This document shows, piece after piece, positions 149 to 23,880 of a stretch of 32,837 nucleotides of DNA. This DNA is from an uncultured Oscillospiraceae bacterium. Lineage in GTDB: Bacteria > Bacillota > Clostridia > Oscillospirales > Oscillospiraceae. Position 1 is the first letter of the stretch. Every line of letters starts with the position of its first letter. The DNA lies in assembly GCA_947589745.1 (NCBI GenBank), contig CANQCS010000027.1:1-32837 (forward strand), in the 5' to 3' direction. The notes beneath the pieces are model-generated. The model did no database searches. It was given only the letters and a program-made list of their open reading frames with translations, and was not told the origin of the DNA. Position numbers and translations under genes: made by a program.

Positions 149-187
149 CTGTCCAAAGCGATACATTTTGGCAGGGGAGTGAGATCC

Positions 188-3139
188 ATGACAGATTTTA
201 AAATGCAGGCCCTGTGGGATTACTATACGGCCGCGGCGGCCGCTCTGGGCGTGAAAAAACAGGACGGCGTCGACCGGGAACAGCCGTATTCCCTGTACTG
301 GTATTTCGACGGGCACAGCCCGGAGCGGAACGTGCTGACCCGGGCCTTTCTGGGTGACGCGGAGGCCATGGCCCTGGTGCGGCGGGGCATCGTGGATCCG
401 GAGGCGGCGGAGGTGCAGCAGGCCCTCTACGGCGGCCAGGGCAGCGCGGTCTGCCGCGAGGAGGATTTTCTGGAGGCCGATTCCCACAATCCACCGCCGG
501 ACGAGGCCCAGGTGGAGGCCATCAAGGCTGCCCTGTCCACGCCCATCAGTTTCATCAAGGGCCCGCCGGGGAGCGGCAAGACCTCTGGCATCCTGCACCT
601 GCTGTCCTGTATCCTGCGGCAGGGCAAGACCGCGGCCATGGTTTCCTCCAACAACACTGCCATCGCCAGCGTGGAGGCGAAGCTGGCCGGGTTCACCGAC
701 CGGTCGCTGTCCAAGCAGCAGGCTCTGAAGCGGAGCTTTGCCCGGCTGGGGAACAGCGGGTGCCGGAAGGCCTTTGAGCAGGCCCATGGGGAGTTGTTCA
801 AAGGGGCGTACCGCACCTGCTCCGAGACGCCGTCGGAGGTCTTTCTGGCCTCTTTCCCCATCGTGGCCAGCACCATCAACTCCCTCCCCAAGTGCTTCAG
901 CGACTGGCGCGGCGGCGCGGACGGGGAGCGCCGGGAGCCGGTCTACGACTATGTCATTGTGGATGAATCCAGCCAGGTGAACACCCTTTTGGGCCTGGTC
1001 GCCATGGGGGCCGCACGGCACCTGGTGCTGGTGGGGGACGACGACCAGCTGCCGCCTGTGACCAACGAAAAGCTGATAGAGAAGGGCACCAAAGACCAGG
1101 CCGGCGCCGCGGGGAAACTGCTGGGCGGGGGCTTTGACCGGGTCTACGCCTTGTCAGAGGACCGCAGTTTCCTGTCCGCCTGCCGGACAGTGTTCTTGGG
1201 CGGCGATCCCGCCCTGTCCACCCGGTGCGACCGGATGCTGTACTTCCACTACCGCTGCCATCCGGGCATCATCGGCTTCTGCCGGGACGCGGTGTACACC
1301 GGCGAGCGGAGCGATTGGACCATGCAGGTCTGCACCCGGCAGTATGACAGGACCCACCCTATGCCTATCCGGGTGCTGTGGTTTGAGGGAAACTACTGCG
1401 AGGACTGCGGCCTGCCAAACAAGGAGCCGGACGACACTGGGGCGGAGCGGAAGACTAAGCGCAACCGCCGCCAGGCGGAGCTCTTTATGGGGGAGGAGTG
1501 GCCTGAACTTCTGGACCGGCTGTGCGCCGACCCCGGGACCGTGCTGGATCTGGAGGACCCGAAGCCGCTGAAATTCTGCGTCCTCTCCCCTTTCCGGGGC
1601 CAGCTGTGGACGCTTCAGAAGCTGCTCAACGAATGGCTGGCGGACGAGGACAACCGGCGGGCCGTCCGGGAGAAGGCCGCCGCCCGACGGGAGGACTTTC
1701 TTCGCATCCTGGAGGAGCTGGGCATGGACGCCTACCTGTCCCAGGGAAGCGGCCGGAAGGAGCTGCGCCGGGCGCTGGACGGGCTGCCGGATCAGAGCGA
1801 GGCTGCCCGGGTCGGATGGACTGTGGATCGCCTCATTGAGACGCTGCCCGACCGGCTACGGCCTTTCCTTCCCGGGGAGGGCCGCCGGGCCGACCCCATG
1901 GAGATCCAGTTGCCCGAGCTCACCATCCACAAGGTCCAGGGGCAGGAGTACGACATCGTCTACTTCCTCCCGGTGGAGGACAAACACTGGGAGTGGCCCT
2001 GGTCCCAGAAGAAGCGCCTCATCAACGTGGCGGTGTCCCGGGCAAAAAAGGAGCTGCGGATCATCGCCTCCGCCGCCCTCATGGACGAGGATATCCAGCG
2101 GGAGCTGACCGGCGGGCGGTGCGCGAGGCCCAAGGGCCGCCCCTCCGGCGGAGCGGATGGGGAGAAGGACAATGCTTTCCTCAGAAAGCTCATCCGCTAC
2201 GTCTGGGAGAAAGGACCCCGCCCCGGCCTCTGGACCGACGGCCCCTTCGGGTTCCACAGGGCCCCGGCCAGCTCTCTGTTCGATCAGGCCGTCTACCTGG
2301 TCCGGGGGCGGGAGCGGGATGACCCGGACAGCGGGGAGAAGTTCTTCCCCTCCGGCCCGGAGGTCTGCTTCCAGGACTGGCTGAGGGCGCTCCCCCTGGC
2401 GGTGGAAAACAGGCTCAGCGTCTACACCGACGCCCCTATCTCCGCCATCGTCCCGCCTCCCGCCGGCATCGACAACGAACAGGGGAACTACATCAAGAAC
2501 GGCGCCCACTTCGACTTCGTGGTCTGCCGGGGAGAGCGCATCCTGCTGGCCGTGGAGGTGGACGGAGCCTATCACCGAACCGAGCCGGAAGGCCGGGGGA
2601 ACGACAAAAAGAGCGATGGGGAGAACGGGAAAAACACCATCGCCGAGAACGACCAGAGGAAAAACGCCATCGCCGGCACCGGCTTCCGCGCCGCCGCGTA
2701 CCGTGCCGCGGGGGGCGGTCTCCAGCCCATGGAGGGCAGCGCGCCCCCGGCGGAGAGCAGCTTCGACTTCCTGCGCCTGCCCACCGACGGCAGCGCCTGG
2801 AATGAAGGGGCACTGATCGAGGGCCTCCTGCGGGAGCGGCTGTCCCTGGAGAGCGGACCGGTCTATGAGCTGCCTGTCCGATCCCTGGACGGTCTGCCGG
2901 ACGACCGGCGGCGGTATGTATTTTGGAAGCTCTCGCGGCCCCAGAACTGGCTCACCGGCAGGCCGGCGGAAAGGGAGGAGCCAAGAGAGAACGTGCGCTG
3001 GGTCCCCACAAAGGACGGCACCAGGGAGGGTCTTATGATGGCCTATCTCCCCGGCAGCGGGGACCGGCTGTACCCCAGCCTTGTGTGCCAGAGGGACGCC
3101 TGGGAGCAGCTGTGCCGCGAGGAAAATGACGATCTGTAA
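188..3139 (+). CDS. Superfamily 1 DNA/RNA helicase with C-terminal PD-(D/E)XK/DUF2726-like nuclease domain
   Basis: A protein of 983 aa, likely an ATP-driven nucleic-acid unwinding enzyme of the DNA2/NAM7/UPF1-like SF1 group. Visible motifs are Walker A GPPGSGKT (about residues 125-132), Walker B VDESSQ (about 258-263), GDDDQLPP (motif III), HKVQGQEYD (motif V, about 581) and NVAVSRAKKEL (motif VI). After the helicase core, a C-terminal module has HFDFVV and VEVDGAYH (Glu near 790), then a basic stretch NDQRKNAIAG and FLRLP. This order resembles the Vsr/DUF2726-type PD-(D/E)XK fold, so DNA cleavage is plausible but inferred. The ATG at 188 is chosen over the in-frame GTG at 179 because AGGGGAG (173-179) sits at a suitable distance from it and the promoter lies just upstream. 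The gene stands alone, convergent with the dNTPase gene. A repair or defence role is possible; no physiological substrate can be read from the sequence. Confidence 0.85.
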   Translation: MTDFKMQALWDYYTAAAAALGVKKQDGVDREQPYSLYWYFDGHSPERNVLTRAFLGDAEAMALVRRGIVDPEAAEVQQALYGGQGSAVCREEDFLEADSHNPPPDEAQVEAIKAALSTPISFIKGPPGSGKTSGILHLLSCILRQGKTAAMVSSNNTAIASVEAKLAGFTDRSLSKQQALKRSFARLGNSGCRKAFEQAHGELFKGAYRTCSETPSEVFLASFPIVASTINSLPKCFSDWRGGADGERREPVYDYVIVDESSQVNTLLGLVAMGAARHLVLVGDDDQLPPVTNEKLIEKGTKDQAGAAGKLLGGGFDRVYALSEDRSFLSACRTVFLGGDPALSTRCDRMLYFHYRCHPGIIGFCRDAVYTGERSDWTMQVCTRQYDRTHPMPIRVLWFEGNYCEDCGLPNKEPDDTGAERKTKRNRRQAELFMGEEWPELLDRLCADPGTVLDLEDPKPLKFCVLSPFRGQLWTLQKLLNEWLADEDNRRAVREKAAARREDFLRILEELGMDAYLSQGSGRKELRRALDGLPDQSEAARVGWTVDRLIETLPDRLRPFLPGEGRRADPMEIQLPELTIHKVQGQEYDIVYFLPVEDKHWEWPWSQKKRLINVAVSRAKKELRIIASAALMDEDIQRELTGGRCARPKGRPSGGADGEKDNAFLRKLIRYVWEKGPRPGLWTDGPFGFHRAPASSLFDQAVYLVRGRERDDPDSGEKFFPSGPEVCFQDWLRALPLAVENRLSVYTDAPISAIVPPPAGIDNEQGNYIKNGAHFDFVVCRGERILLAVEVDGAYHRTEPEGRGNDKKSDGENGKNTIAENDQRKNAIAGTGFRAAAYRAAGGGLQPMEGSAPPAESSFDFLRLPTDGSAWNEGALIEGLLRERLSLESGPVYELPVRSLDGLPDDRRRYVFWKLSRPQNWLTGRPAEREEPRENVRWVPTKDGTREGLMMAYLPGSGDRLYPSLVCQRDAWEQLCREENDDL

Positions 3140-4855: not shown

Positions 4856-6182
4856 TCATATTTTGTCCGCAGTTCTCGGGATGCTGACCGAGTAGCCGCC
4901 GCAGGACGGATCGTCGAACATCAGGTCGTCCAGGGCGTTCTGCACCTGGGAGCGCATCCATCTGACGCCCAGGCCGGTGGAGGCGGCCTGCCCCGCCAGG
5001 TAGTCCACGGAGGCGTCGTCAATTGCGATCTCGCCCTTGATGGCGGCCTGCATATCCTTCAGCACCGAGCCGGTTAGGATCGCTCTATAATCCGCGGCCC
5101 CCAGAGGGCGCAGCGGAACGATGCGGTTGATCCGGCCCGCGATCTCCCGGCGCATACCGGCGTCGATCAGGTCGCCGTAGGTGATCTCCGTGTTGGTGTA
5201 ATCGCACTCCACGCAGGGCGCCGCGCCGAAGCCGATCCCGCCGCCGCGTTTCCCGCTCTTGCCCCGTAGCAGAGTCTCGAACGCGCCCAACAGCACGAAG
5301 GACACCTTTGAGCAGTCGACGGAAAACGCCTTTTTCCCGTCTTCCTTGCCGAACTCGACCACGTCCCCGTCCAGCAGCTTCAACAGGCTGTTCTGGGTCA
5401 GGGCGTTGTAATTCGTCCCGCCGGAGCCCACCGCCGTTTCGCAGCAGATCTTGTCGGCCTCGTCCAGCACCACGATGATCCCGTCCTGCAGATCTTCCGG
5501 GGAGGCGCCTTCAAAGATGTCCCGCACGTGCACACTGCCCCGCCAGCCGTCGGCGGTCAGGCGGCTGGCGTCGATCATGCGGATGAAGGAGAACGTCTTC
5601 GCCATGCACCGCCAGATCTCGGACTTGCCGCAGCCGGACGGCCCGCAGAAGATCGTGTTGGAGCGGCGGCCCTCCACATGGTTGTAGACGATCATGGCGG
5701 CGGCCTTTTTCGCCCGCTCCTGTCCGTGTACTCTTTCGAGGAGATCATAGATCTCACGGGGTGTCCAGAACTCGCCGGTCCAGTCACAGTCAAAGGCATC
5801 GCCGTCCAAGGCGCGTTCGCGCTGCGCCGCGTGGATCTTGTCCAGATCGCTTTCGCGTCCCGCCGGGCGGTAGTCGGAGTATATGGAGCTCTCCGCGAGC
5901 AATTCCACGATGTTCGCCATCCGGCTGCCGTAGATCTTGGTGCGGCTCAGGGCGTCGAGCAATATGTCGCCGGCGGCGCGGCTGCCCATCCCACAGCGGC
6001 TGGATCTGCTCCACGCCGGCAAGAAGCTTTCCGTATTCCTCATCCGACAGATGATCGTACTCGCCGGCTCTTGCCCGCACGGTAAAATCGCTGGCCGGAT
6101 TCTCAACGGACATGGACGCGTCGCCGCCGCACACCAGGCGGAGGTAGCGCTGCCAGAAGTCCCGGGCATAGTCCTTTGTCAT
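4856..6182 (-). CDS. ClpX-like AAA+ ATPase with an apparent one-base frameshift near its N-terminus
   Basis: The body is a ClpX/HslU-type AAA+ module: VHGQERAKKAAAMIVYNHVEG before Walker A GPSGCGKS, DASRLTADGW, Walker B VVLDEADKI, QNSLLKLLDGD, LLGAFETLL, RREIAGRINRIVPL, and a sensor-2-like GLGVRWMRSQ. This follows the ClpX order, but no zinc-binding domain is present and I see no IGF-type ClpP-docking loop, so a partner other than ClpP is likely (inference). The best start is the ATG at 6182 (AAGGAGATATGCC before it), giving MTKDYARDFW. That frame reads sensibly to about 5985 (IQPLWDG), then turns arginine-rich, while the ATPase frame becomes sensible from about 5975 (AAGDILLDALSRTKIYG). The whole span is one base longer than a multiple of three, so a one-base insertion in the gene or the assembly explains it. 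If the shift is real, a shorter protein could begin at MANIVELLAE. The gene follows the 208-aa gene by 22 bases. Confidence 0.75.
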
Positions 6183-6204
6183 GGCATATCTCCTTTCTTA
6201 CCGC

Positions 6205-6831
6205 TTAAGTAGTGACGGAATATTTGGCGTCCTTCAGACTGCCGCTGTTCCGCAGGGTCAGCCCGCCGCAGACCCCCTTCCTTCCGTCCGGCCCCACCTC
6301 CTCGAAGAGAAAGCTGTAGGGGTCCCAGTCCGGGAAAAATCGGATCGTCCGGGAGCCGGACCACCGGAAGCCGTCGCGGAGGGCGCAGATCAGCTTGCGC
6401 TTCAGGCCCGGCACAGCCAGGACACGGCGCAGCGTCTCCTGCGCCCCCGGATCGGAGAAGTCCAATACGGGCAGGAAGTCCGTCTCCAGGGACAGCAGGG
6501 AGGCCGTTTCTACCCGGTAATACCCGCTGTCCAGGACAAAGGTGTGGAACTTCTCCCAGTCCAGGATCACAGTCTCCGCGCTGCCGGAAAGGGAGCCGTC
6601 CGGCGCCTCGGACAGCCAGGACAGGCGGAGCTCAAGGGTCTTCAGATCTTCACGATAGTAAAGCGTTGCATAGGAATCAAGGTCCCTCACCGTGATATAG
6701 CGGCTGGATTCCAGCCTCTCCAGATCGTCTCGCGGGATGAAGAACCGGGCGGGAGATTTTTTCGTCCGGCTGACCGTCCGAAGGTAAATGCAGCTTTCGG
6801 TACTTCCCAAGATCACCAAAGTACGTTCCAT
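6205..6831 (-). CDS. Uncharacterised 208-aa protein, partner gene of the ClpX-like ATPase
   Basis: No family is recognised. The protein is soluble, with no signal peptide or membrane segment. It starts MERTLVILGSTES, has a mixed alpha/beta look, and is rich in aromatic residues in its second half (WEKFHTFVLDSGYYRVE, RFFPDWDPYSFLFEEVG). The start at 6831 is supported by AAAAGGAGCG about 8 bases upstream. The stop codon lies 22 bases before the ATPase start and the two share one terminator, so they are almost certainly co-transcribed. A role as an adaptor, substrate or target-recognition subunit for the AAA+ protein is an inference from the gene pair only. Confidence 0.8.
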   Translation of the reverse strand: MERTLVILGSTESCIYLRTVSRTKKSPARFFIPRDDLERLESSRYITVRDLDSYATLYYREDLKTLELRLSWLSEAPDGSLSGSAETVILDWEKFHTFVLDSGYYRVETASLLSLETDFLPVLDFSDPGAQETLRRVLAVPGLKRKLICALRDGFRWSGSRTIRFFPDWDPYSFLFEEVGPDGRKGVCGGLTLRNSGSLKDAKYSVTT

Positions 6832-7077: not shown

Positions 7078-9309
7078 TTATGAACTTTCCTGCGCTTCTT
7101 GCGGGGCAATCTCCACGAGCACGTCTCCTTTCTCCCTGTGCACGGTAAAGCCCCGGATATATCCCAGCGCACGGAGATGCTCCAGGACCCGCTGCTCCTT
7201 CTCGATCAGCGCCGCCAGTTTTCGCTTCCTCTCATAGACCCCCTCCGGCAGACGGATGCCCAGCGTTTTCAGCAGGGTATCCATGCGGATGGACCGGCTG
7301 GTGGCCGCTCTGAACCTCCGGCTCCGCGGTCCGCGCCCCATGGAGCCGATGCGAAGCAGCAGATACCACACCACAGCCAGGTTTTCCCCGCTGGCGGGCA
7401 GGCCCGGGATGTGGAGCCGCTGGGTGGGCAGCACATAGAACTGGCCGTTGAGGATCTCGGCGTATTCATAGAGGGGCGGCAGCGTCTGCGGGTCATATCC
7501 GAAACCGGAGCTCTTTTCTTCAATCGGCAGGAACGGCCCGGAGAGGACCGTGCGATCTCCCTGCCCGCTGTATACGAAGCCGTAGCGGGCGGAGTTCCGC
7601 CGGTCGATCTCGATCCGGCAGTCCATCATCTTCCGCAGGCTCTCCTCCACCGCCGCCTTGCGTTCCGGCCGCAGGGTCAGCTTCGGATTCCCGGAGAGAA
7701 GCTCCATGATCCCCTTCGCGGTGATGGTTTTGACGCGGTTTTTCATCAGCGTATAGACCGCGTCCGCGATCATCATGTCAAAATAGGTGAGCGCGGGGCC
7801 ATCCAGGCGATAAGATACCGTCGGTACCGCTCCCTCCGAACGTGACCTTCCCACGGGAACATCCCGGCCGGACCTATGTCCCTTTCGCAGTTCTCCTGCC
7901 ACTTTCGTGCGGTTGGCGTACACCGCGTCGATCTCCCTGACACGCTCCTCCATCGCCCGGCGTATGGCCTGGGCCTCCACCTCAGCCTCTGCGGGAACGG
8001 GACCCTCGAAATACCGCCTGATATATCCGCCCAGGGCCTCGCCGCCGCCATCCAACGCGCTGTATTCCAGCATGGCGTGGAGCTTGTCCTCCGCAACGCG
8101 CCGCCGCGCCGCCTTTGCCTCTGCCCCCAGCGCGCTCCCCTGGAGAGACCGCTCGATGAGACCGCGGCAGATCTGGTCGTCTCCCGGCAGACAGCAGAGA
8201 ACGCACTCCCCGCCCTTCCCGTCGCGCCCGGCGCGGCCGGCCTCCTGGAAATAGTCCTCCAGGGAGAGAGGCAGCTCATAGTGGATCACGAACCGCAGAT
8301 CGCTCTTGTCGATCCCCATGCCCAGCGCGGTGGTGGAGACCATCACCTGTGCCTCACCCCGCTGGAACCGATCCAGGTTCGCTTTTTTATTTTCATCTGG
8401 CTCCAAGGGGATGTTCCCGCCGCCCTCATCCAGCTTCGCGTAGTAGCGCAGCGCATCCACGCCGGAGGTTTTCAGATGCCCATAGACCTCATCCACGCTA
8501 GCGGCGGTAGTGCAGTAGACGATGCCGCTTTGTCCGGGATGCTTCCGGACAAAGCGGGTGAGGAAGGAGAGCCTTCCGGCCCTGGACGAAAACCGGCGGA
8601 CGGAAAAGGACAGGTCACTCCTGGCGGCGGGATAGATGTATTCCCTGGGCGCACGCATGGCGAGAAAACACTTGATGTCCTCGCGGACCGGCTTTGTGGC
8701 GGTGGCGGTAAAGGCGGCCACCGTGGGATGGCAGCCCATCCGCCGCATGAGCCGGCTGATCTCAAGATACCGGGGCCGGAACTCATAGCCCCAAAGGGAG
8801 ATACAGTGGGCCTCGTCCACGGCGATCAGCGAGATCTCCGCGTTCTGGGCGAAACGAATGAACGCCCCGGTCCGCAGACGCTCCGGCGTCACATAGAGGA
8901 GCTTGTATCCGCCCTCTGCGGCGTCGGAGTAGATCCTGTCCCGGCGGGAGCGGAACCTCGCGTCCTCGCCGGAACAGAGATGGGGGCCGTCCCGATCCAG
9001 CAGAAATTCCCCCACGAGGCAGGCCACGGGGACGCCGTTCCTGTACAGCGTCTCCCCCTGGTCCTGGATCAGGGCGACGAGGGGGGACACCACCAGCGTG
9101 ACCCCGGGCAGACAGAGGGCGGGGACCTGATAGCAGACGGATTTGCCGCCGCCGGTGGGCATCACGGCCAGCACGTCCCTCCCGGCCACGATGTCCCGGA
9201 CAATGGCGCGCTGGTCCGGGTCAGCGCGAAAGGCAGCCTCCGCCTCCGAAACGCCCAACACCCTGGCCAGTGCGGCGCGCAGCTCTTCCTCAGATACCTT
9301 CCTTTTCAT
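7078..9309 (-). CDS. RecQ-family ATP-dependent DNA helicase, variant without zinc-binding cysteines
   Basis: A 743-aa 3'-5' superfamily 2 DNA helicase of the RecQ family. Walker A is MPTGGGKS (about residues 50-57), the DEAH box is DEAHCIS (165-171), TATATKPVR is motif III, STTALGMGIDKSD is motif V, and QEAGRAGRDG is motif VI with the arginine finger. The RecQ-specific motif reads SLWGYEFRP, with Leu where RecQ proteins usually have Gln. The region that should carry the four zinc cysteines (about 405-445, EDKLHAMLEYS...GGYIRRYFEG) keeps the surrounding pattern but has none of them. The C-terminal 230 residues are not a usual RQC-HRDC tail. They contain TYFDMMIADAVYTLMKNR and look like winged-helix DNA-binding segments, vaguely like plasmid replication initiators (low confidence). 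The frame runs to 9426, but the ATG at 9309 has AAGGGGGG upstream and starts the conserved part. It stands alone, 118 bases after the kinase gene. Confidence 0.85.
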   Translation of the reverse strand: MKRKVSEEELRAALARVLGVSEAEAAFRADPDQRAIVRDIVAGRDVLAVMPTGGGKSVCYQVPALCLPGVTLVVSPLVALIQDQGETLYRNGVPVACLVGEFLLDRDGPHLCSGEDARFRSRRDRIYSDAAEGGYKLLYVTPERLRTGAFIRFAQNAEISLIAVDEAHCISLWGYEFRPRYLEISRLMRRMGCHPTVAAFTATATKPVREDIKCFLAMRAPREYIYPAARSDLSFSVRRFSSRAGRLSFLTRFVRKHPGQSGIVYCTTAASVDEVYGHLKTSGVDALRYYAKLDEGGGNIPLEPDENKKANLDRFQRGEAQVMVSTTALGMGIDKSDLRFVIHYELPLSLEDYFQEAGRAGRDGKGGECVLCCLPGDDQICRGLIERSLQGSALGAEAKAARRRVAEDKLHAMLEYSALDGGGEALGGYIRRYFEGPVPAEAEVEAQAIRRAMEERVREIDAVYANRTKVAGELRKGHRSGRDVPVGRSRSEGAVPTVSYRLDGPALTYFDMMIADAVYTLMKNRVKTITAKGIMELLSGNPKLTLRPERKAAVEESLRKMMDCRIEIDRRNSARYGFVYSGQGDRTVLSGPFLPIEEKSSGFGYDPQTLPPLYEYAEILNGQFYVLPTQRLHIPGLPASGENLAVVWYLLLRIGSMGRGPRSRRFRAATSRSIRMDTLLKTLGIRLPEGVYERKRKLAALIEKEQRVLEHLRALGYIRGFTVHREKGDVLVEIAPQEAQESS

Positions 9310-9426: not shown

Positions 9427-11643
9427 TTAATGATCGTTCTTCTGCCGGGTCAGGATCTCGCTCAGCGTGGCGTACACGGTGGCGATTTCCAGAGGTTTGG
9501 AGATGTGGGCGTCCATGCCGGCCTGGCGGCACTTTTCCGCGTCCTCGGCAAAGGCGTTGGCGGTCATGGCCAGGATAGGGATGGTCCCGGCGTCCGGCCG
9601 GTCCAGGGCCCGGATGGCCCTGGTGGCGGCGTAGCCGTCCATACGGGGCATCTGGATATCCATGAGGATCAGGTCGAAATGGCCCGGCGCGGACTGCCGG
9701 AAGAGCTCCACCGCCTGCTGGCCGTCCTCCGCCTCCACGATCTCCGCGCCTGTCTCCTCCCCCAGCAGCTCCACGGCGATCTCCCGGTTGAGCTCGTTGT
9801 CCTCCGCCAGGAGGATACGCTTCCCATGAAAATCGTACTCCATCCTGGGAGCGGCCCGGTGGGAGGCCGCCTGGTTTCCTTCCCAGGCGATGGCCCGGGC
9901 TCCCTCCACGGTGGAGAAGGGAATACGGACGGAGAAGGTGCTCCCCTCCCCGAATACGCTCTCCACCTTCACGCTGCCGCCCATCATCTCGGTGAACCGC
10001 TTCACGATGGACAGGCCCAGGCCGGTGCCGCCGAACTTGTGGGCCACGCCGGAGTCCTCCTGCTCAAAGGCCTCGAAAATCTTGTCGAAATTCTCCTCCT
10101 TGATGCCCACGCCGGTGTCCGACACCTGGAACAGCAGCCAGAGGCGGCCCTCCTCCCGCTCCGCCTCGGTGACGCGGAAGGCGACCTTTCCGCCGCCGGA
10201 GGTGAACTTGATGGCGTTGGACAGGAGGTTGGACAGGATCTGGTTCAGCCGCAGGGAATCCCCCACCACCGTCTCGTCCACCCGCCCGGTGAGGACGGCA
10301 TCGAAGCGGAGGCCCTTGGATTCCGCCTGGGTGCGGTACACGCTGACCAGGCTCTCCAGGAAGAGGCGCAGATCGAAGGGCTCGTATTTCATCTCCAGCT
10401 TGCCGCTCTCGATCTTGGACATATCCAGCACGTCGTTGATGAGGGCCAGCAGGTGCTGGGAGGACAGGGACACCTTTTTCAGGCAGTCGTCCACCTTGGC
10501 CGGGTCGTCCAGGTTCTGCCGGGCGATGGTGCTCATACCGATGATGCCGTTCATGGGGGTGCGGATCTCGTGGCTCATGCGGCTGAGGAACTCGCTCTTG
10601 GCTTGGTTAGCGCTCTCCGCCCGCTCCTGGGCGGCCACGGCGGCCTCGTTGGCCTGGACCAGGGCGCGGGTGTGCTGCTGCAAATTGAAATAGTAGGCCA
10701 GAAACAGGATGGTGATGGCTGCGAGGATGACCGCCAGCACCACCAGCGCGTTCCTGTTCAGCTGGTTGGTCTGGGCAGCCACCATCTGGTCGATCACCTC
10801 ATAGGGGATCTCCAGCAGCATCATCCAGCCGGTCTCCTCGATGGGGGCGTAGTACATACACTGCAGGTGGCTGCCGGCGTGGAAGATGGTCATGCCCGGG
10901 GACCGGGAGGCAAAGTCGGTGCGCACCTGCTCCAGGGAATAGCCCTCGTGGAAGGAGGCGTAGGCCTCCAGCTTGGAGAGGATATTGGTGCCCGCCGGGA
11001 GGTCATCATTGAAGGTGTTGTGGATGATAAAACTGCCGTCCTGGGTGACGATGCTGGCATAGGTCTGGGCCTCCGGGTTCTGGAGGGCCAGGCCGGAGCT
11101 GAAGGCCTCGCTGGTCAGGCCGGCCAGCATCGCCACAAAGGTCCTGTCCCCGAAGGCGATGGGGTCGATGGTGACGCCCATGATGATCATATTCTCATTG
11201 ATCAGCGCCTCGCTGTAGGAGATCTGATCGCTCTCCCCCAGGAGCAGGTCGCCCAGGAAGCTGAGCCGGGAGGCGGCGGGCCGGACGCCCTCCTCGCTGT
11301 AATAGAACCCGTTGTCGTCCAGGAAGGCCAGGAACTGAAAGTCGTTGTACGTCTCCGCCTCCGTGAGGAAGGCGGTCAGGGTGTCCTGGCTTTGCAGGTC
11401 CTCGCCGTTCACGCTGCCGGCGATGGTGTGCAGGGCGGAGAACCGGGCGCTGAGGCCGGTGTCGAAGTGGCTGCCGATCTGGGCGGTCATCTCCCGCAGA
11501 TACATCCGGTTCAGCTCCGCCCCGGAGGTCAGGGTGATCTGGCCGGAGGACTGGATCAGCCAGCGAAAGCACCCGGCGCAGATGGCGAAGATAAGGGCGG
11601 TCAGCAGCAGATAGGGCAGGCGGGACCTCTTATGCTCAGTCAT
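9427..11643 (-). CDS. Membrane hybrid sensor histidine kinase with C-terminal receiver domain
   Basis: A 738-aa sensor kinase in the cytoplasmic membrane. There is a membrane segment at about 10-29, an extracellular Cache-like sensor region at about 30-297 (including [12 protein letters not shown]), and a second membrane segment at about 299-319. A short coiled coil links to the HisKA domain, where [11 protein letters not shown] carries the phospho-accepting His358. The ATPase domain has [11 protein letters not shown] (Asn475 region), SDTGVGI and [10 protein letters not shown] receiver domain at about 608-733 has AEDN, the phospho-acceptor Asp662 in [11 protein letters not shown], and the conserved Lys716 in HISKP. 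All catalytic residues are present. No separate response regulator or output domain lies nearby, so the phosphate must pass to a protein encoded elsewhere. The ATG overlaps the end of the lipoprotein gene by 8 bases, which indicates translational coupling. The neighbouring extracellular binding protein is the likely ligand-presenting partner (inference). Confidence 0.95.
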
Positions 11644-13609
11644 CTCCGGTCACCACCTTGATCCGCCCCTCCGGTTCGGCAAAAATGGCCTCGCCGTTGT
11701 GGGTCTGGAAGTAGATCTGGAGGGCGTCCCCGAAGGTCTTGTCCGTCTCCCGCACCAGCTTGACGTCCTCCGCCAGGGGGGCGGTGTCGCTGTACACGTT
11801 GAGCATGGTGTACCCGTCGCCGTTATTGTCCAGATAGCCGTCCGCCCCGCACATGTAGGAGGTGACGGCGATGGTGTAGGTCCGGGACTCGTCGAAGGGC
11901 GAGCCGTCCGGCATGGTGATGTCCAGCAGCTCCGCCGGAGTGTCCTCCGTGGGGGCGCGGTAGGAGTAGCACAGGCCGGACACGTTCAGGAACCGGCCGC
12001 CGGGGATACCGCTCTCCTGGATGAGGCGGGTCAGGCCGTTGGCCAGCATCTCCCGGACCACGGAGCCCTTCGCCTCCAGCACCACCATAGGGTTACCGTA
12101 GGGGCACACCACGTCCAGGTCGCTGCCGAAGACGTTGCCCTCGTAGAGGCTGCCCCGAATGGCGCCGCCGTTGACGAAAGCCAGGTCCACCTGAGCCATC
12201 TCCCGGAGGGCGTCGGCCACCAGGTTGCCGATGCCCGTCTCCTCCCGGCGGACGTTGTAGTCCTCATAGATCATATCCCCCGCCACGACGCCGATGAGGG
12301 TCTGGTCGTACTCAATGTCCGCGTCGCCCTCCAGGAAGTAGCGGTCCACGCCGGCCAAGGCCTCCTCCATGGTGGTCTCCCCGTTGAGGGCGGACACCAT
12401 ACTGCGGCCGAAGTACAGGAGCAGCTTGGCGGGGAACCGCACGTCATATACATAGCCCTCCGAGATGCAGTCCGCCAGGCCCGGGGGGATCTCGCCGGGG
12501 GCGGGGACCTCCTCCGCCAGATAGGACTGGGACGCGCCCAGGTCCCGGATGAACGCGGCCTGCCCCTCCGGGGTGGACAGCAGGGCCAGGACCCGCTGGG
12601 CGGCGTCCAGGACGTCCTCCTTTCCCGGATCGGCCAGAGTGGCGTTCAGGCCCAGGAACGACGACGGCGTGGCGATGGTCCAGGGGTGGTTGTCCCCCTC
12701 GCTGAGGAAGGGGACCATGGCAAATTCATACTGGCCGCCGTGGGCGTTCAGCGTGTCCAGGAACTGGACCGTGCCGTAGGTGAGCAGCATGGTGCCGTCC
12801 AGCATCCGGTCCTGGACAGGGGTCTCGTTGCCCCGGTTGCCGCTCAGGCGGACGGGGTTCAGATAGCCCTTCTCCGCCATGGCGGCGGACAGGTCCAGGC
12901 AGCGGGCCATGCCGCCCAAGAAAGTGTCCTCCCGCTTGGTGAGGCGCTCCCGCCAGACGACCCCCTCGGACTGGCCCAGAAAGTCGGGGATCTGGGTGCC
13001 GACGAAATAGGTGGATACGTTGGTCATGTCGTTGGACTCAAGGGCGAACATGACGCCGTCGCTGCCCTGGCCCAGCCCCTGGGCCGCCGCCGTGTCCAGC
13101 ATGTCCATCAGATCGCCGGTGGTTGCGGGGGGCTCGGTCACCCCGGCCTGGGCGGCCAGGGTGGCGTTGTAGATGTAGCCGGAATACTGCCCGGGCAGGG
13201 GCAGGAACAGGGTCTTGCCACCGATGAGCAGGTTTTGGGAGATGCCGGCCTGGTAGGCGGAGGCAAACTCCTGGGCGCTCAGATCCATGGCGTAGCTCCG
13301 CACGTCCCCGGTGGGCATGGTGGTGGTGATGATGTCGGCGCCGTGGCCGGTGCGCAGGCGGCGCTCACTCTCGCCGTCGATAGTGGCCTTGGCGTTGAGT
13401 TCGATCTGGAGGTCGATATCCGGATATGTAGCCTCCACCAGCGCCTCAAAGTTGCTCAGTTCGATGGAATACAGCATGGTCACCGGGACCTGCGCCGGGG
13501 CGGGACCCTCCCCGCTCTCCACCGGACCGGGCTCCGCCGCCGGGCCGCAGCCCACCAACTGGAGGGCCAGCAGACAGGTCAAGATCAGACTGACGAACCG
13601 TTTCTTCAT
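11636..13609 (-). CDS. Lipoprotein fusing an ABC-type solute-binding domain to a 5'-nucleotidase C-terminal domain
   Basis: A 657-aa exported lipoprotein. The signal peptide is [10 protein letters not shown]...ALQLVGCG, with lipobox LVGC and Cys21 as the lipid anchor, followed by a Pro/Glu/Gly linker. Residues of about 40-400 look like an extracellular solute-binding protein of the sugar type ([38 protein letters not shown]). Residues of about 435-650 match the 5'-nucleotidase C-terminal domain: [60 protein letters not shown]. The catalytic metallophosphoesterase half of a 5'-nucleotidase (DxH, GNHE) is absent, so no hydrolysis is expected. In true 5'-nucleotidases this C-terminal domain provides substrate binding, so recognition of a nucleoside or nucleotide is a reasonable guess. 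The start has TAGGAGGT 7 bases upstream and a perfect promoter. No permease genes are nearby. The gene overlaps the hybrid kinase gene, pointing to sensing rather than transport. Confidence 0.9.
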
Positions 13610-13652
13610 GTTCCATACCTCCTATCCCAAGGCAACACATTAACACATTTTA

Positions 13653-13681
13653 ATTATACAAATTGGCTCCAGGATTGTCAA
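13653..13681 (-). promoter_or_regulatory. Perfect consensus sigma-A promoter of the lipoprotein-kinase operon
   Basis: On the minus strand TTGACA (13681-13676) and TATAAT (13658-13653) match the consensus exactly with a 17-base spacer. The start codon lies about 40 bases downstream. Such a promoter implies strong basal expression unless repressed. Confidence 0.9.
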
Positions 13682-17448: not shown

Positions 17449-17501
17449 TTTCTTTTGGAGCTTTCAAAACGTCTGATGTGGAAAGGCAAAGGGGAACATG
17501 T

Positions 17502-18287
17502 ATGGATACTGTCATATCAGAGAAAAAAGCGGAACGGATCTATCAGCTCCTGCTCCGATGCGGCGCTGAGCGCACGCAGTCCGGTTTCTGCGGAAAACTG
17601 GTCAAAGAGATCGAAGACCTTGTTTTCTACGACCAGTCCCGCGTACTGTTTCTGGACAGGACAGGGAAGATCTGCGACTACCGGCTGTTCGGCGTCAATG
17701 AGCGGCAATGGAATGATTTCATGTACTACTACGAGAACGACCTGGTATTCAGCAAGTACCCCATGAAGGAACCCTTGCATTTATCGCAGAAAGAAAAAGT
17801 TTTAGCACACAACTATTGGTACGATTTTGATGAGAAGACTGTGGACAGCAGTATCTTTGTGGATGACTATGTACGATCCCTTCGGCTGTATCACAGCCTG
17901 GGGATCGGCCTGAGCGACCAGGATAACTGCATCCGCAGCATTATTGTGCTGGACCGGACACAGGATATCCCCTTCACCTATCACGAGATCGAATTGGTCC
18001 GAAAAATACATCCGTTGCTGGAAAACTATCACATCGACTTGCTCCTGGACTCCGGCCCGGCATCCTCCCCGCTCCAAACTTTCAAGCAGTCTTATTTTCT
18101 CACCAAAAGGGAGACGGAGATCGTAGGGCTGCTGATGGATGGGCTCACGCCTTCGCTTATCGGACAGCGGCTCAATGTCAGCGTCGCCACGGTATACCGG
18201 CATATCGCCAATATCTATCAGAAGTGCCATATCTCGAACCGTCAGGAGCTGCACAGGCTATTTTCAGGACTGAAGCCACGCGATTAG
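17502..18287 (+). CDS. LuxR-family transcriptional regulator
   Basis: A 261-aa DNA-binding regulator. The C-terminal helix-turn-helix (about 200-256) has the LuxR/NarL pattern: LTKRETEIVGLLMDGLTPSLIGQRLNVS, then VATVYRHIANIYQKCHISNR. The N-terminal 190 residues are an uncharacterised sensory region, possibly GAF-like (SIIVLDRTQDIPFTYHEIELV). No receiver-domain residues are seen, so control is likely by a small ligand. The ATG at 17502 is chosen because AAAGGGGAA lies at a good distance; a GTG at 17478 is in frame but less well placed. It is divergent from the SDR/PanB-like operon and is its likely regulator. Two palindromes in its own leader suggest autoregulation. Confidence 0.88.
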   Translation: MDTVISEKKAERIYQLLLRCGAERTQSGFCGKLVKEIEDLVFYDQSRVLFLDRTGKICDYRLFGVNERQWNDFMYYYENDLVFSKYPMKEPLHLSQKEKVLAHNYWYDFDEKTVDSSIFVDDYVRSLRLYHSLGIGLSDQDNCIRSIIVLDRTQDIPFTYHEIELVRKIHPLLENYHIDLLLDSGPASSPLQTFKQSYFLTKRETEIVGLLMDGLTPSLIGQRLNVSVATVYRHIANIYQKCHISNRQELHRLFSGLKPRD

Positions 18288-20453: not shown

Positions 20454-23363
20454 CTAACTACCGTTTTTATCCCCTCTGTACCCATCCAGCATCCTCAGCA
20501 GCTCGCCCGCCAGTTCCGGGCTGCATAGCCGCATGGAACCATTGCCGCCGCGCTCGAAGCCGAGGAAGTTGATCCCTCCGTACCACAGCGTCTGCCGGTC
20601 GATCACAGCGAACCGCTGGTGCTGTCTGGGGATGCGGCGGACCTGTATGCCGCGCTCCTCCAGCAGGGTGATCGCCGCTTGGACCTTTCGCTCTGTCTCC
20701 GGCTTGAAGCAGCTCTCATCCCCTGTGATGACCTTTGCCGCTACGCCTTGGGGCAGCCAGGTGAGAAAACGCTTCACCTGTCCCATCTGCAAGTAGGGGC
20801 TGACCACCACGATACTTTTCTCCGCCTGCCGCACGTCCTCCGCAAAGGCGGGCAGATAGTCCTCCTGGCTGAAGATCCGGTTGCCCTCCACCGGCCTGTC
20901 CGCGTCCCCACGGACACTGTAGCCGATGGCGGCGTATCCTGTGAGCCGCCTCTGATACATCCGCTCCAGCATGGGGACCCGCAGGTCCACATAGTCATAA
21001 ATCAGCACCTCCCGCTTTCCGGCATACTCCCGGTGGAGCCGACCGGCATACTGGGCCAGAGTGCCCTTCCAGGAGATGGGCATGGCCAGCATCAGCGTAT
21101 CCAGCCGGGGCAGGTCAAAGCCCTCGCCCACATACCGCCCGGTGGCCACCAGGACCAGCGGCTCCTCCGGCGGGATCTGTGCCAGCTCTGCCAGCAGTTC
21201 CCGCTTCTCCCTGGCGGTGCCGTGTCCTGACAGCAGCACTACCCGTCCGTGCCGCTCCGCCAGCTGCGCGTAAAGCAGCTTCGCGTGGTCGTACCGCTCC
21301 GTCAGCACCAACGGCGTTCTTCCGGCGGATACAGCCTCTGTCACATCCGCGATGATCTGCGCGTTCCGCGCCTGATCCGTCTGCATCGCCCGGTAGGCGT
21401 CGGTGATGGTCCACGGCTTATCTTCTGTCAGGGGCCGGGCAAATGCGGTGAATCGTGGGATCACCGCATGGGAAAAGCTCCGCTTCTCCGCCTGGGCCTT
21501 GGCGTCCACCTGATATCGAATCGGTCCGCACTGGAGATAGATGATGGGGTGGTGTCCATCCTTCCTGGTGGGTGTGGCCGTCAGGCCATAGACATACCGG
21601 GCGTTCACCTCTTTCAGGATGCGCTCAAAGCTCACCGCGGACACATGGTGGCATTCGTCCACGATGACCATGCCGTAGTCCTTGACCAACTCCCGCACCT
21701 CACCGCCTGAAATCAGGGACTGCATGATGGCCACGTCCACAAAACCCTCCAGACTGTTTTTCGTCCCGCCCAACTGTCCGATAAAGGACCGCTGCCGCTT
21801 CCTTCCGCGTCTTTTAGGCAGCTCGGGCAGCACCTCGTCAATGGCGAGAAACTGTGTCAGCGCCCGCTTCCACTGGTCCAGCAGGGACTGGGTATGGACC
21901 AGGATCAGCGTGTTGACCTGTCGCTGTGCAATCAGATAGGCGGCCACCACGGTCTTGCCAAACGCAGTGGTGGCGGAGAGCACGCCAATGTTGTGTTCCA
22001 GCAGCGCATCCGCCGCCGGCTGCTGTTCCTCCCGCAGTTCCCCCAGGAAGCGGGCGTGCAGGGTTTTCCCGGAAAAGGTCCTGTCTGTGATCTCGTAGGG
22101 AACACCGGTCCCGTCCAGCAGCTCCCGCAGCTTGGGTTCACAGCCGCGCGGCAGTGCCAGGTAGCCGTCCCGTTCCTCTGCCGTGCTCACGATCCGGGGC
22201 TTGTTGTAAACTGGCAGGCGCATGGCCTGCGCCCGGTAGAACTCCGGGTTCTGGAACGCGGCCAGCCGCACGAGACGGTTCCGGGCCCGTGGAGAAAACC
22301 CCTGCAGCGGGAGAAACAGCATATTCGCCCGCGTGATCTGCTGGATGCCATAGAAATCTATGGCGGTCAGCGGCCTTCTCTTTCGTTTTTCCCAGGGTTT
22401 TTGTTCCTGCCCATCCTCATACAGCTCACCCAGTACGCCGCCTTTGCCGTGGACCCGGAACAGATCATCCAGCGCGTGGGCCGTCAGCTTTTCCATTGCC
22501 GCCAGATACGCCCACTGATCAGGATAAGGATGCAGCATTTCATCCACAAACACGCTGTTTCCCCTTTTTCGCGCCAGCCCTTGGAGCGGCAGAGCGATCA
22601 AATTGCCAAAACCTCCCTTGGGCAGGGTGTCCTGGCAGGGGAACATCCGGTCGTATGCTTCCAGTTTCAGCTTCCCATCCCGCTCCATGGCCGCCGTCAG
22701 CAACAGGGCTCCCAGCTTCCGGACCGCCGCGCATGAGACCGGCTCCGCGAAGAATATCCAGAGATGGGCCCCCTCTCCGCTCCGCGAGCGCTCCACGCAG
22801 CAAGGCACGGACCACTCTTGGCAAACGCTCCTTAGAGACGACACATTCTCTCGCCAGCCCTCGTCATCCAGGTCAATGGCCAGGAACCAGCAGGTATCAT
22901 CCTCCAGAATAGGATAGAGGCCCACCACATCTCTGCCATATCCGTCCCTTCCTATGAGGTGGTCATAGATCGCCTGATCAGCGAGAGGCACCAGGGTCCG
23001 TTGATCGCACTGTGGGCAGGTGACCTTTGGCTTGGGGCATATGCCCTCCTTCCACTCGTTGGCACATACAGGAGAATACCCGCTCTTCCCGCTTCTGACA
23101 CTGTACCACCGCCTGGCGTAAACGTCCTCGCGCCCCCGAAAGAGGGATCGAAACAGACGGATCTTATCATCCGGCCCGCTGTGCCTGTCAACTTTTGGGG
23201 TGGTAGAGGGCAAAGCGCTGTCCGCTGCCACTGGTACTGCAGGCCCTGCGGCAACCGGATGTTCCCTACGCTCAAGCCCCAGCTTTTCTCTGAGCTCCCG
23301 GTTCTCTTTCTCCAGTTCCAAGACGCGCTGCTGCAGTTCCCTGCATCGGGATTCCCAGTCCAC
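20454..23363 (-). CDS. TOTE-type primase-helicase: AEP primase, SF2 helicase and PLD-like domain in one protein
   Basis: A 969-aa multidomain protein. Domains in order: an N-terminal coiled coil (about 1-32); a four-Cys zinc-binding motif (Cys100, Cys109, Cys116, Cys119); an archaeo-eukaryotic primase domain with the metal-binding LAIDLDDE (Asp164, Asp166) and SGEGAHLW (His200); an SF2 helicase with TTAFGKT (Lys near 468), VIVDECHHV, GLTATPTRKDG, VATGRYVGEGFD and QYAGRLHR; and a C-terminal phospholipase-D-like nuclease domain ending in HQRFAVID...WYGGINFLGF. This is the architecture of the TOTE conflict-system primase-helicases, thought to act against invading nucleic acid. In the PLD motif the usual HxK reads HQR, so cleavage activity is uncertain. 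The start is a GTG at 23363 with AAGGGGGGAG 5-6 bases upstream, better placed than the TTG at 23384. No partner gene is in the same operon, but the Wadjet operon is next door. Confidence 0.9.
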   Translation of the reverse strand: MDWESRCRELQQRVLELEKENRELREKLGLERREHPVAAGPAVPVAADSALPSTTPKVDRHSGPDDKIRLFRSLFRGREDVYARRWYSVRSGKSGYSPVCANEWKEGICPKPKVTCPQCDQRTLVPLADQAIYDHLIGRDGYGRDVVGLYPILEDDTCWFLAIDLDDEGWRENVSSLRSVCQEWSVPCCVERSRSGEGAHLWIFFAEPVSCAAVRKLGALLLTAAMERDGKLKLEAYDRMFPCQDTLPKGGFGNLIALPLQGLARKRGNSVFVDEMLHPYPDQWAYLAAMEKLTAHALDDLFRVHGKGGVLGELYEDGQEQKPWEKRKRRPLTAIDFYGIQQITRANMLFLPLQGFSPRARNRLVRLAAFQNPEFYRAQAMRLPVYNKPRIVSTAEERDGYLALPRGCEPKLRELLDGTGVPYEITDRTFSGKTLHARFLGELREEQQPAADALLEHNIGVLSATTAFGKTVVAAYLIAQRQVNTLILVHTQSLLDQWKRALTQFLAIDEVLPELPKRRGRKRQRSFIGQLGGTKNSLEGFVDVAIMQSLISGGEVRELVKDYGMVIVDECHHVSAVSFERILKEVNARYVYGLTATPTRKDGHHPIIYLQCGPIRYQVDAKAQAEKRSFSHAVIPRFTAFARPLTEDKPWTITDAYRAMQTDQARNAQIIADVTEAVSAGRTPLVLTERYDHAKLLYAQLAERHGRVVLLSGHGTAREKRELLAELAQIPPEEPLVLVATGRYVGEGFDLPRLDTLMLAMPISWKGTLAQYAGRLHREYAGKREVLIYDYVDLRVPMLERMYQRRLTGYAAIGYSVRGDADRPVEGNRIFSQEDYLPAFAEDVRQAEKSIVVVSPYLQMGQVKRFLTWLPQGVAAKVITGDESCFKPETERKVQAAITLLEERGIQVRRIPRQHQRFAVIDRQTLWYGGINFLGFERGGNGSMRLCSPELAGELLRMLDGYRGDKNGS

Positions 23364-23580
23364 CGCTTCTCCCCCCTTGGTCAAGTTTCAGTCTTTGTAT
23401 CATGCGATCACAGCTTTATGGAGGATTTTTTATTCATTGTAACACAGCGCAGTTCAGAAGAAAATAGCCATATTGGGTTTAACCCCACAAAAAGGATCAT
23501 ACTGATAATATGCTGCAAGTATGTATTTCGATTTGTCGCATATGATTTTGACAAGTCCACATATAACAGGAGGGGGTATT

Positions 23581-23880
23581 ATGCGGGTATGGATCTATGG
23601 TGATTCGCCTGAACAAGCCCGGGCACTAGCGGACAGCATCGTTCGCTGCGGCAGCGTTGTAGCCGGCTGTTCGATTCGCAAAACAGGCAGCTGCACCTTT
23701 CCGCACAGTGGCCTGACGCCGGCTGTCTCCGCCGCCGCCTTAAGGGAATTCGATGTTCTTATCGTTCCGACACAGGAAATACTGGGCGGCCAGGCGGACG
23801 CGGACCGAATCTCCGGGATATTCAAAAGCTATGGCGTTTCAATCAGGTCAGCCTCTAACTCCGAAATCAGCAGCTCCTGA
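23581..23880 (+). CDS. Small protein resembling a degenerate resolvase catalytic domain
   Basis: A 99-aa protein with an excellent start (AGGAGGGGG before the ATG). Its beginning MRVWIYGDSPEQ, its middle AALREFDVLIVPTQEILGG and its end DRISGIFKSYGVSIRSA follow the order of the N-terminal catalytic domain of serine recombinases (RVWIYARVS..., ...DALLV..LSRLGR..., ...GV.I.S). The conserved arginines and the DNA-binding part are missing, so recombinase activity is unlikely. Its last 52 bases overlap the end of jetD on the other strand. The family call is a low-confidence pattern match; the ribosome binding site makes the gene itself credible. Confidence 0.5.
   Translation: MRVWIYGDSPEQARALADSIVRCGSVVAGCSIRKTGSCTFPHSGLTPAVSAAALREFDVLIVPTQEILGGQADADRISGIFKSYGVSIRSASNSEISSS

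Follow-up and report, generated by a model that had tools for sequence, protein, structure and literature searches.

A lipoprotein that joins a solute-binding domain to a 5'-nucleotidase C-terminal domain, encoded beside a hybrid histidine kinase: a probable sensing module of Clostridia

The stimulation of transmembrane receptors by solute-binding proteins (SBPs) is presented as general and widespread in a study of SBP repertoires, in the available sections of which the word "nucleotidase" has zero occurrences (PMC9602780). In the CuaD-CuaS-CuaR system (CuaDSR) of Ruminiclostridium cellulolyticum, the lipoprotein SBP CuaD binds the extracytosolic part of the sensor CuaS, according to the available sections of its description (PMC10384115). 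In the XylFII-LytS system, the complex comprises two SBPs and two extracellular domains of the sensor kinase (cited in PMC9602780; passages of PMC10384115). Here we analyze a related layout found in a stretch of 32,837 nucleotides (nt) from an uncultured Oscillospiraceae bacterium (GenBank assembly GCA_947589745.1, contig CANQCS010000027.1), hereafter the window. The locus consists of two genes: one encodes a lipoprotein that joins a family-1 SBP domain to the C-terminal domain of 5'-nucleotidases (5NucC) and the other encodes a membrane hybrid histidine kinase.

The window pair resembles CuaDSR in that both are clostridial and in that the gene of a family-1 lipoprotein SBP directly precedes the gene of a membrane histidine kinase. 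It differs in several respects: in the passages available, CuaD is a 410-residue mature SBP with no mention of a 5NucC domain, and CuaS is a class-I kinase of 627 residues, its own regulator gene follows, and the system controls a linked sugar transporter (PMC10384115), which is absent from the window. An SBP-sensor complex as in XylFII-LytS is predicted for the window pair. XylFII-LytS differs from the window pair by another type of SBP, by a non-hybrid kinase and by having no known nucleotidase domain. As in three-component sensing, the SBP gene of the window stands next to a kinase gene; unlike in that type, no dedicated response regulator adjoins the pair, and we therefore consider that the pair works like the CuaDSR and XylFII-LytS type and do not file it as a member. 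The initial annotation of this DNA knew of no described system with this layout. Systems that couple an SBP to a kinase are described; for the fusion itself the remark stands: we found no description of an SBP-5NucC protein in the open-licence literature, among the matches listed. In its working, the window module thus resembles SBP-dependent sensing, and its composite binding protein has no description in the literature searched.

Two domains were identified in the 657-residue lipoprotein (table 1). The 5_nucleotid_C family of Pfam matches residues 451-592 with an E-value of 2.3e-28 (99.7 bits; cut-off 23.6) and SBP_bac_8 matches residues 96-358 with an E-value of 2.1e-6 (28.2 bits; cut-off 27). 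A family profile of 20 members matches the solved family-1 SBP 3quf of the PDB over nearly its full length (E 1.2e-24; profile positions 46-416), and the same profile matches the 5'-nucleotidase 2z1a (E 5.7e-26). No Pfam match to Metallophos, the catalytic half of 5'-nucleotidases such as UshA and CD73, was found in the 657 residues. The product of the second gene carries HisKA, HATPase_c and one receiver domain according to Pfam, and is thus a hybrid histidine kinase. Its sensor region matches dCache_1 with an E-value of 0.00046, and the sensor profile weakly matches structure 3lib (E 0.019).

The two genes overlap by exactly 8 nt (11636-11643), the lipoprotein gene being first. It is preceded by a sigma-A-type promoter matching the consensus at 12 of 12 positions; in this region, three sites scoring at least 9/12 were observed for 0.6 expected, and both hexamers are also found 5' of the gene in four of five orthologues (the exception is L034). 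No permease was found among the 17 other open reading frames (ORFs) of the window scanned with Pfam, and none of the scanned ORFs adjoining the pair is an output regulator. The closest candidate for such a regulator is a LuxR-type (GerE) ORF at 17478-18287, about 4 kb away on the opposite strand. No RNA leader was found in the window by Rfam at gathering scores. The observations of the initial annotation, i.e., an SBP domain and the C-terminal half of a 5'-nucleotidase without its catalytic half in one lipid-anchored polypeptide, an 8-base overlap with a membrane hybrid kinase, a perfect promoter and no permease genes nearby, are all confirmed by these results.

Table 1. Features of the lipoprotein-kinase locus, in coordinates of the window.
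Feature	Position	Strand	Basis
SBP-5NucC lipoprotein, 657 residues	11636..13609	-	ORF and Pfam; orthologues found
Hybrid histidine kinase, 738 residues	9427..11643	-	ORF, Pfam and family alignment
-35 hexamer TTGACA	13676..13681	-	12/12 together with -10; spacer 17
-10 hexamer TATAAT	13653..13658	-	part of TTGACA-17-TATAAT, 13681-13653
Shine-Dalgarno-like AGGAGGT	13617..13623	-	ATG 7 nt on; read from sequence
Lipobox LVGC, residues 18-21, Cys21 expected to be acylated	13547..13558	-	sequence; Cys21 invariant in 20/20 aligned members
Family-1 solute-binding domain, residues 45-415	12365..13477	-	SBP_bac_8; family profile vs PDB 3quf
5'-nucleotidase C-terminal domain, residues 451-592	11834..12259	-	Pfam 5_nucleotid_C
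Extracytoplasmic sensor region, weakly dCache-like, flanked by two hydrophobic segments	10753..11544	-	segments read from sequence; dCache_1, 3lib
HisKA, phospho-acceptor H358	10402..10602	-	Pfam; H358 invariant in 12/12
HATPase_c	9913..10263	-	Pfam
Receiver domain, D662	9469..9816	-	Pfam; D662 invariant in 12/12

We searched for relatives of the lipoprotein by asking only for SBP and 5NucC domains in one ORF, with no kinase required. This yielded 53 lipoprotein genes in 47 loci; L082 and L083 were excluded as neither has both domains in a single ORF. A search of named genomes with the single protein identified 8 loci. Seven of these are close orthologues in metagenome-assembled genomes titled uncultured Oscillospiraceae or Lachnospiraceae, both families of Clostridia, from isolates named 'Lapin', i.e., rabbit, whose source, judging by the names, was probably the gut. 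The kinase adjoins the lipoprotein gene in six of the seven, and in L036 the contig stops within the lipoprotein gene. The eighth locus, L038 of a Bipolaricaulota record, is an SBP-only stretch (119 residues, 30%). L036 and L038 are outside the 53 genes; L037, whose 5' end is missing, is among the 53 and outside the tree presented below. Profile searches detected one or more genes combining both halves in a single ORF in 15 of the 400 genomes searched in the family, 16 of 394 in the order and 11 of 391 in the class. These counts are lower bounds, since at most three candidates were scored per genome; the three sets overlap, genomes were placed by kinship labels, and matches to one half only were left uncounted (respectively, 45 of 60, 6 of 22 and 12 of 23 matching genomes). 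Among 299 genomes of the phylum, a full-length match was found solely in the window's own genome and 10 others matched one half.

Three other interpretations of the fusion were rejected. It is not a one-off event, as the profile searches found further members at the family, order and class levels. It is not an assembly artefact either, because the same fusion with the same neighbor recurs in separate assemblies, including the single-contig genome G078 (the window contig is one of the 252 contigs of a draft assembly). The majority of the genomes analyzed are likewise drafts in several contigs. Finally, none of the 159 matching records of the plasmid collection covers at least 80% of the lipoprotein in one place, which does not suggest plasmid-borne spread; among the matches listed, 8 records align from residue 384 onward only.

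The kinase gene accompanies the lipoprotein gene across these relatives. For 48 of the 53 lipoprotein genes, a kinase is encoded in the same cluster and on the same strand, downstream in 45 cases. The latter comprise 19 overlaps of at most 20 nt, 19 gaps of 0-200 nt, three first genes of a tandem and four overlaps exceeding 20 nt, which reflect the start codon chosen. The overlap is exactly 8 nt in nine of the 19 short overlaps, window included. Both lipoprotein genes of G790 lie after the kinase gene, and the second lipoprotein gene of G1034 lies 293 nt past one kinase and about 600 nt ahead of another. We counted 43 distinct kinases and the 41 with a visible core are all hybrid (21 with one receiver and 20 with two); the other two, in G086 and G344:C24, are cut by the contig end after the sensor. 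In G1102, the contig ends 181 bases after two lipoprotein genes and the N-terminus of a kinase is found there (56 residues, 57% identity). Overall, a kinase was counted for 50 of the 53 lipoprotein genes, and for four of the 50 (G086, G344:C24 and the two of G1102) only the kinase start is visible. The sensing pair proposed by the initial annotation withstood these comparisons: the 5NucC domain is found, a kinase is in the cluster for nearly all fusions and the fusion is no artefact of assembly.

Tandems of two different SBP-5NucC lipoproteins were observed before a single kinase in four genomes (G030, G234, G727 and G1102). In the tandem loci L044, L046, L150 and L167, each of two clades that have lost the nucleotide pocket described below contributes one lipoprotein, with a single kinase. 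Tandem lipoproteins could possibly form a heteromeric receptor. In addition, the excluded locus L083 (G209:C90) contains a 364-residue ORF at 5534-6628 in which the first half of an SBP lipoprotein is in frame with a receiver domain; this arrangement resembles the outcome of an internal deletion joining a lipoprotein of this kind to the end of a hybrid kinase.

We further analyzed the nucleotide pocket of the 5NucC domain, using what we take to be the residue numbering of UshA and assuming that the residues of CD73 correspond to those of UshA. The passages available report that the C-terminal domain of UshA binds the base of the substrate and, in the open form, ATP (PMC8475336), and that F417, F500, R395 and D506 of CD73 hold adenine, ribose and phosphate (PMC7508162). 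The C-terminal domain of the window protein is homologous to that of these enzymes, with the base-stacking aromatics, the GG-x-IR arginine, the asparagine and the aspartate kept: R454, R485, Y504, N506, Y585 and D598 (the last just past the end of the Pfam domain) are found at the positions of, respectively, R379, R410, F429, N431, F498 and D504 of UshA. In contrast to these enzymes, the window protein has an SBP domain in place of the metallophosphatase half. In addition, the members with a kept pocket that we examined in the alignment share an insertion of about seven residues before the NGDGY motif (7 residues in the window), which is absent from UshA and from two metallophosphatase-bearing homologs. 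The pocket is kept at six of the seven positions checked in 21 of the 53 members, which form one clade that includes the window (hereafter keepers). Position 429 is Phe or Tyr and position 498 is Tyr in these proteins, and the equivalents of R379, R410, N431 and D504 are kept.

The phylogenetic trees of the two proteins have their main split in common. In the lipoprotein tree (52 rows), keepers form one side of a branch (20 rows; support 100/100), and the same 20 split off in the kinase tree (45 rows, 40 of them different; support 100/99). The two proteins are therefore co-inherited. These results suggest that the two genes probably constitute an SBP-dependent sensing module whose SBP, in the window's clade, carries a nucleoside- or nucleotide-binding module, with phosphotransfer to cyclic di-GMP (c-di-GMP) turnover as its most likely output. 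The parts of this reading differ in strength. That the lipoprotein is the ligand-binding partner of the adjoining kinase is very likely, with physical contact between them predicted. That the pocket of the window's clade would bind a nucleoside or nucleotide as a signal is about evenly balanced, and an output through c-di-GMP, whose relay partner is a prediction, is put forward tentatively.

The proposed output is based on the genes found in the window's genome and in its relatives. We identified 35 receiver matches in this genome and one match to Hpt (histidine phosphotransfer) at E-values up to 0.001. Contig C49 carries this Hpt, the sole one detected in the draft assembly, flanked by a hybrid kinase gene and by a gene encoding receiver (REC), HD and GGDEF domains (L091:10108-12177). 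Three hybrid kinases, one with SBP_bac_3 domains, are encoded together with the Hpt and the REC-HD-GGDEF protein at this locus (L091, G000:C49, 3635-16385). Since the window kinase has a lone receiver and no adjacent partner, its relay is most likely through the Hpt of C49, and since this Hpt lies beside a REC-HD-GGDEF regulator, c-di-GMP turnover is the most likely output. In two relatives, similar genes are near the pair: in G291, a REC-HD-GGDEF gene and the lipoprotein gene share a 4-nt overlap, and a GGDEF-REC-HD gene lies about 110 nt past the kinase in G611b. A GGDEF protein is encoded after the kinase of G638 (L159, 3393-5267) and its sensor is related to that of the kinase, such that kinase and cyclase have a similar input domain. 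Other regulators include a REC-GGDEF-EAL gene some 6 kb from the kinase-free locus G492:C61, a gene with helix-turn-helix and REC domains upstream in G155 and G492:C23, and a REC-Trans_reg_C gene about 4 kb upstream in G1034. The initial annotation's remark that no response regulator with an output domain is adjacent therefore applies to the window and not to relatives such as G291 and G611b. Among neighbors of keepers, 105 of 128 candidate ORFs were scanned with Pfam; the scan omitted eight window ORFs, three scanned earlier, among which the G291 regulator, and 12 at a locus end or very long.

Several observations weigh against the proposed reading. No kinase was found near three lipoprotein genes (G056:C26, G492:C61, whose ORF has no start, and G672), and the pair is patchy: of nine other genomes sampled in the same genus, eight gave no match and G234 has pocket-less members only. 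The dCache assignment of the window kinase sensor falls below the cut-off (20.2 bits vs 45), with 30.5 bits for the sensor of G078a, and the sensor profile missed the paired kinases of G071, G030, G234, G727 and G712:C3 at an E-value of 1e-10, which suggests that the sensors of pocket-less clades are far diverged. GGDEF was found in just three of the 105 neighbors of keepers, a set that excludes the G291 regulator, and the c-di-GMP link is thus suggestive only; hybrid kinases are also often near GGDEF-type genes in general. Regarding the nucleotide signal, no nucleoside-related family was found among the 25 of 114 families listed for these 105 neighbors. The assignment of D598 is alignment-dependent: the equivalent of D504 was variable in a first alignment (GADGY) and became D598 of NGDGY, kept in 21 of 21 keepers, when two Metallophos-bearing homologs were added. 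The equivalent of R375 of UshA is absent from all 21 keepers; we dropped this as an argument against nucleotide binding because R375 is also absent from two Metallophos-bearing 5'-nucleotidases of the same bacterial family (L041 and L042). Keepers are also a single clade, and shared ancestry accounts for part of the conservation of their pocket. Finally, the pocket is gone in 32 of the 53 members.

This last observation indicates that the C-terminal domain has some role that needs no nucleotide. It is a real possibility, with somewhat less than even support, that 5NucC is a structural or docking module only, which positions the SBP at the proper height or touches the sensor of the kinase or another lipoprotein, without binding any ligand, and that the SBP cleft alone senses, presumably a carbohydrate. 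The 32 pocket-less members still carry the C-domain, and nearly all have a kinase. These domains are recognized by the family profile, and by Pfam 5_nucleotid_C above the cut-off in L081, L084 and the second lipoprotein of L044; the Pfam match is below the cut-off in L045 and L086, and there is none in L043, L046, L047 and the first lipoprotein of L044. For members without a Pfam match, homology is based on a profile-profile comparison of five members from each of two pocket-less clades with six keepers (probability 95.5, E 1.5e-8; probability 84.7, E 6.7e-6). The SBP half is homologous to sugar SBPs, and a paralogous kinase-SBP pair of G338 lies near a CBM26 protein and a sugar-type ABC transporter. 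On the other hand, keepers were defined by the equivalents of R410 and F429, and the test was repeated on the four other pocket columns (R379, N431, F498 as Tyr, and D504): all four are invariant in 21 of 21 keepers, which amount to 10 representatives below 70% identity, for 45 invariant columns out of 234 (P = 0.0012, uncorrected for ancestry). The lipoprotein is under purifying selection and the C-domain is its slower-evolving half, the ratio of nonsynonymous to synonymous substitution rates against four orthologs being lower in the 5NucC half (0.11-0.24) than in the SBP half (0.16-0.38) in four of four comparisons. The pocket itself thus seems to be under selection in the keeper clade. The initial annotation's suggestion that the lipoprotein presents two ligands is therefore plausible for the window's clade and does not extend to the whole family.

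Alternatively, the kinase could sense a small molecule directly through its Cache-like domain, the lipoprotein merely sharpening or tuning the response. The available passages on CuaDSR provide a precedent, as CuaSR still perceives cellobiose without CuaD, less efficiently (PMC10384115). We consider this unlikely here, because the covariation of lipoprotein and sensor exceeds that with the kinase core: across 39 pairs, the pairwise distances of the lipoprotein correlate more strongly with those of the kinase sensor (r = 0.85) than with those of the kinase core (r = 0.77), and the partial correlation with the sensor given the core is 0.59, although common ancestry inflates correlations of this type. 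In 20 genomes selected as positive, 34 matches to the sensor profile were obtained, and the best 17 are all lipoprotein-paired kinases; 10 of these were rows of the profile, such that only seven are independent. Ten of the 17 weaker matches were inspected and five of them (window's genome C40, G896, G1077, G338 and G078) have an ordinary SBP_bac_1 lipoprotein gene directly downstream, which also argues against direct sensing. Three others have a REC-HD or REC-HD-GGDEF regulator just upstream and two have neither.

The C40 pair lies in the window's own genome (L174, G000:C40, 3142-7109). Its hybrid kinase shares 33% identity with the window kinase across almost the entire length, sensor included, and its gene overlaps that of an SBP lipoprotein by 4 nt. 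In contrast to the window pair, the kinase gene is first, the kinase has two receivers and the SBP is a single-domain protein without significant blastp similarity to the window SBP (best E 0.19). A similar sensor with dissimilar SBPs is the strongest argument that this sensor takes its input from a binding protein. In G338 (L179, G338:C3, 3646-12339), the paralogous hybrid kinase-SBP pair is divergently oriented from genes for a CBM26 starch-binding protein, a further SBP and two BPD_transp_1 permeases; this locus is likely a starch or maltodextrin sensor beside its transporter, in a layout as in CuaDSR.

SBPs can serve unlinked permeases, and ABC_tran was found in three of the 105 keeper neighbors. 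It is nonetheless very improbable that the lipoprotein is the transport SBP of a permease encoded elsewhere and that its kinase neighbor is incidental, given the kinase found with 50 of the 53 genes and the matching trees; moreover, no binding-protein-dependent permease family is among the 25 of 114 families listed for these neighbors (unlinked permeases were not searched). A split enzyme, in which the lipoprotein would supply its substrate-binding half in trans to a separate metallophosphatase, would fit the kept pocket of one clade and the distinct domains that form the halves of UshA (PMC8475336), and is the least credible explanation of all, since no Metallophos was found among the window ORFs scanned or the neighbor families just mentioned and most relatives have no pocket.

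The sensing module that we favor would operate as follows. The lipid-anchored lipoprotein would bind an extracellular ligand and dock on the extracytoplasmic sensor domain of the kinase encoded downstream, thereby changing its autophosphorylation. In the window's clade, a second binding site would be the base-binding pocket of ecto-5'-nucleotidases, without the enzyme half, which makes nucleosides or nucleotides the most likely second (or main) signal. Within the kinase, phosphate would move from H358 to D662 of its receiver, and from there to a separate Hpt protein. The Hpt of C49 would in turn pass it to the adjoining REC-HD-GGDEF regulator and thereby affect c-di-GMP turnover. In its most specific and more doubtful form, this scenario would imply that, in the keeper clade, the domain by which an ecto-5'-nucleotidase binds the base has become a receptor and that, together with a sugar-type SBP, it forms a two-input detector of extracellular nucleotides, nucleosides or nucleoside diphosphate sugars from host or dead cells, signaling to c-di-GMP by way of the hybrid kinase and the one Hpt detected. 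In the sister clades, some of which have two tandem lipoproteins for one kinase, this receptor would then have been retuned once the nucleotide site was lost. The interpretation given in the initial annotation is partly supported.

None of the nine sampled genomes of the same genus has the pocket-keeping pair, which indicates that the pair is accessory there. The window contig itself looks like an accessory or defense region, with a superfamily 1 helicase with DUF2726 (179-3139), a divergent RecQ-family helicase (7078-9309) and a DDE_3 transposase (32254-32823). The RecQ gene was tried as a test of the contig's membership in the genus and was uninformative, its best match elsewhere in the genus being 50% identical, with no close ortholog. 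We also observed a Wadjet type II-like defense cassette complete with its four genes on the minus strand (23829-31779: JetD, JetC, JetB and JetA, with DUF2399, TIGR02680 SMC-like, DUF2398 and DUF2397, respectively) and, beside it, a TOTE-type primase, a helicase and a PLD-like domain in one protein (20454-23384).

To our knowledge, most sensor kinases of these bacteria have no known signal. If the nucleoside or nucleotide part of our reading is true, anaerobes would possess a sensor devoted to extracellular nucleotides, derived from the half by which the enzyme family containing CD73 recognizes its substrates. Such a sensor would link the purines of the surroundings, probably the gut in the case of the rabbit isolates, to bacterial second-messenger control. 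Even without the nucleotide part, the pairing of a two-domain lipoprotein with a hybrid kinase, shared across several families of Clostridia, offers a set of testable ligand-receptor pairs.

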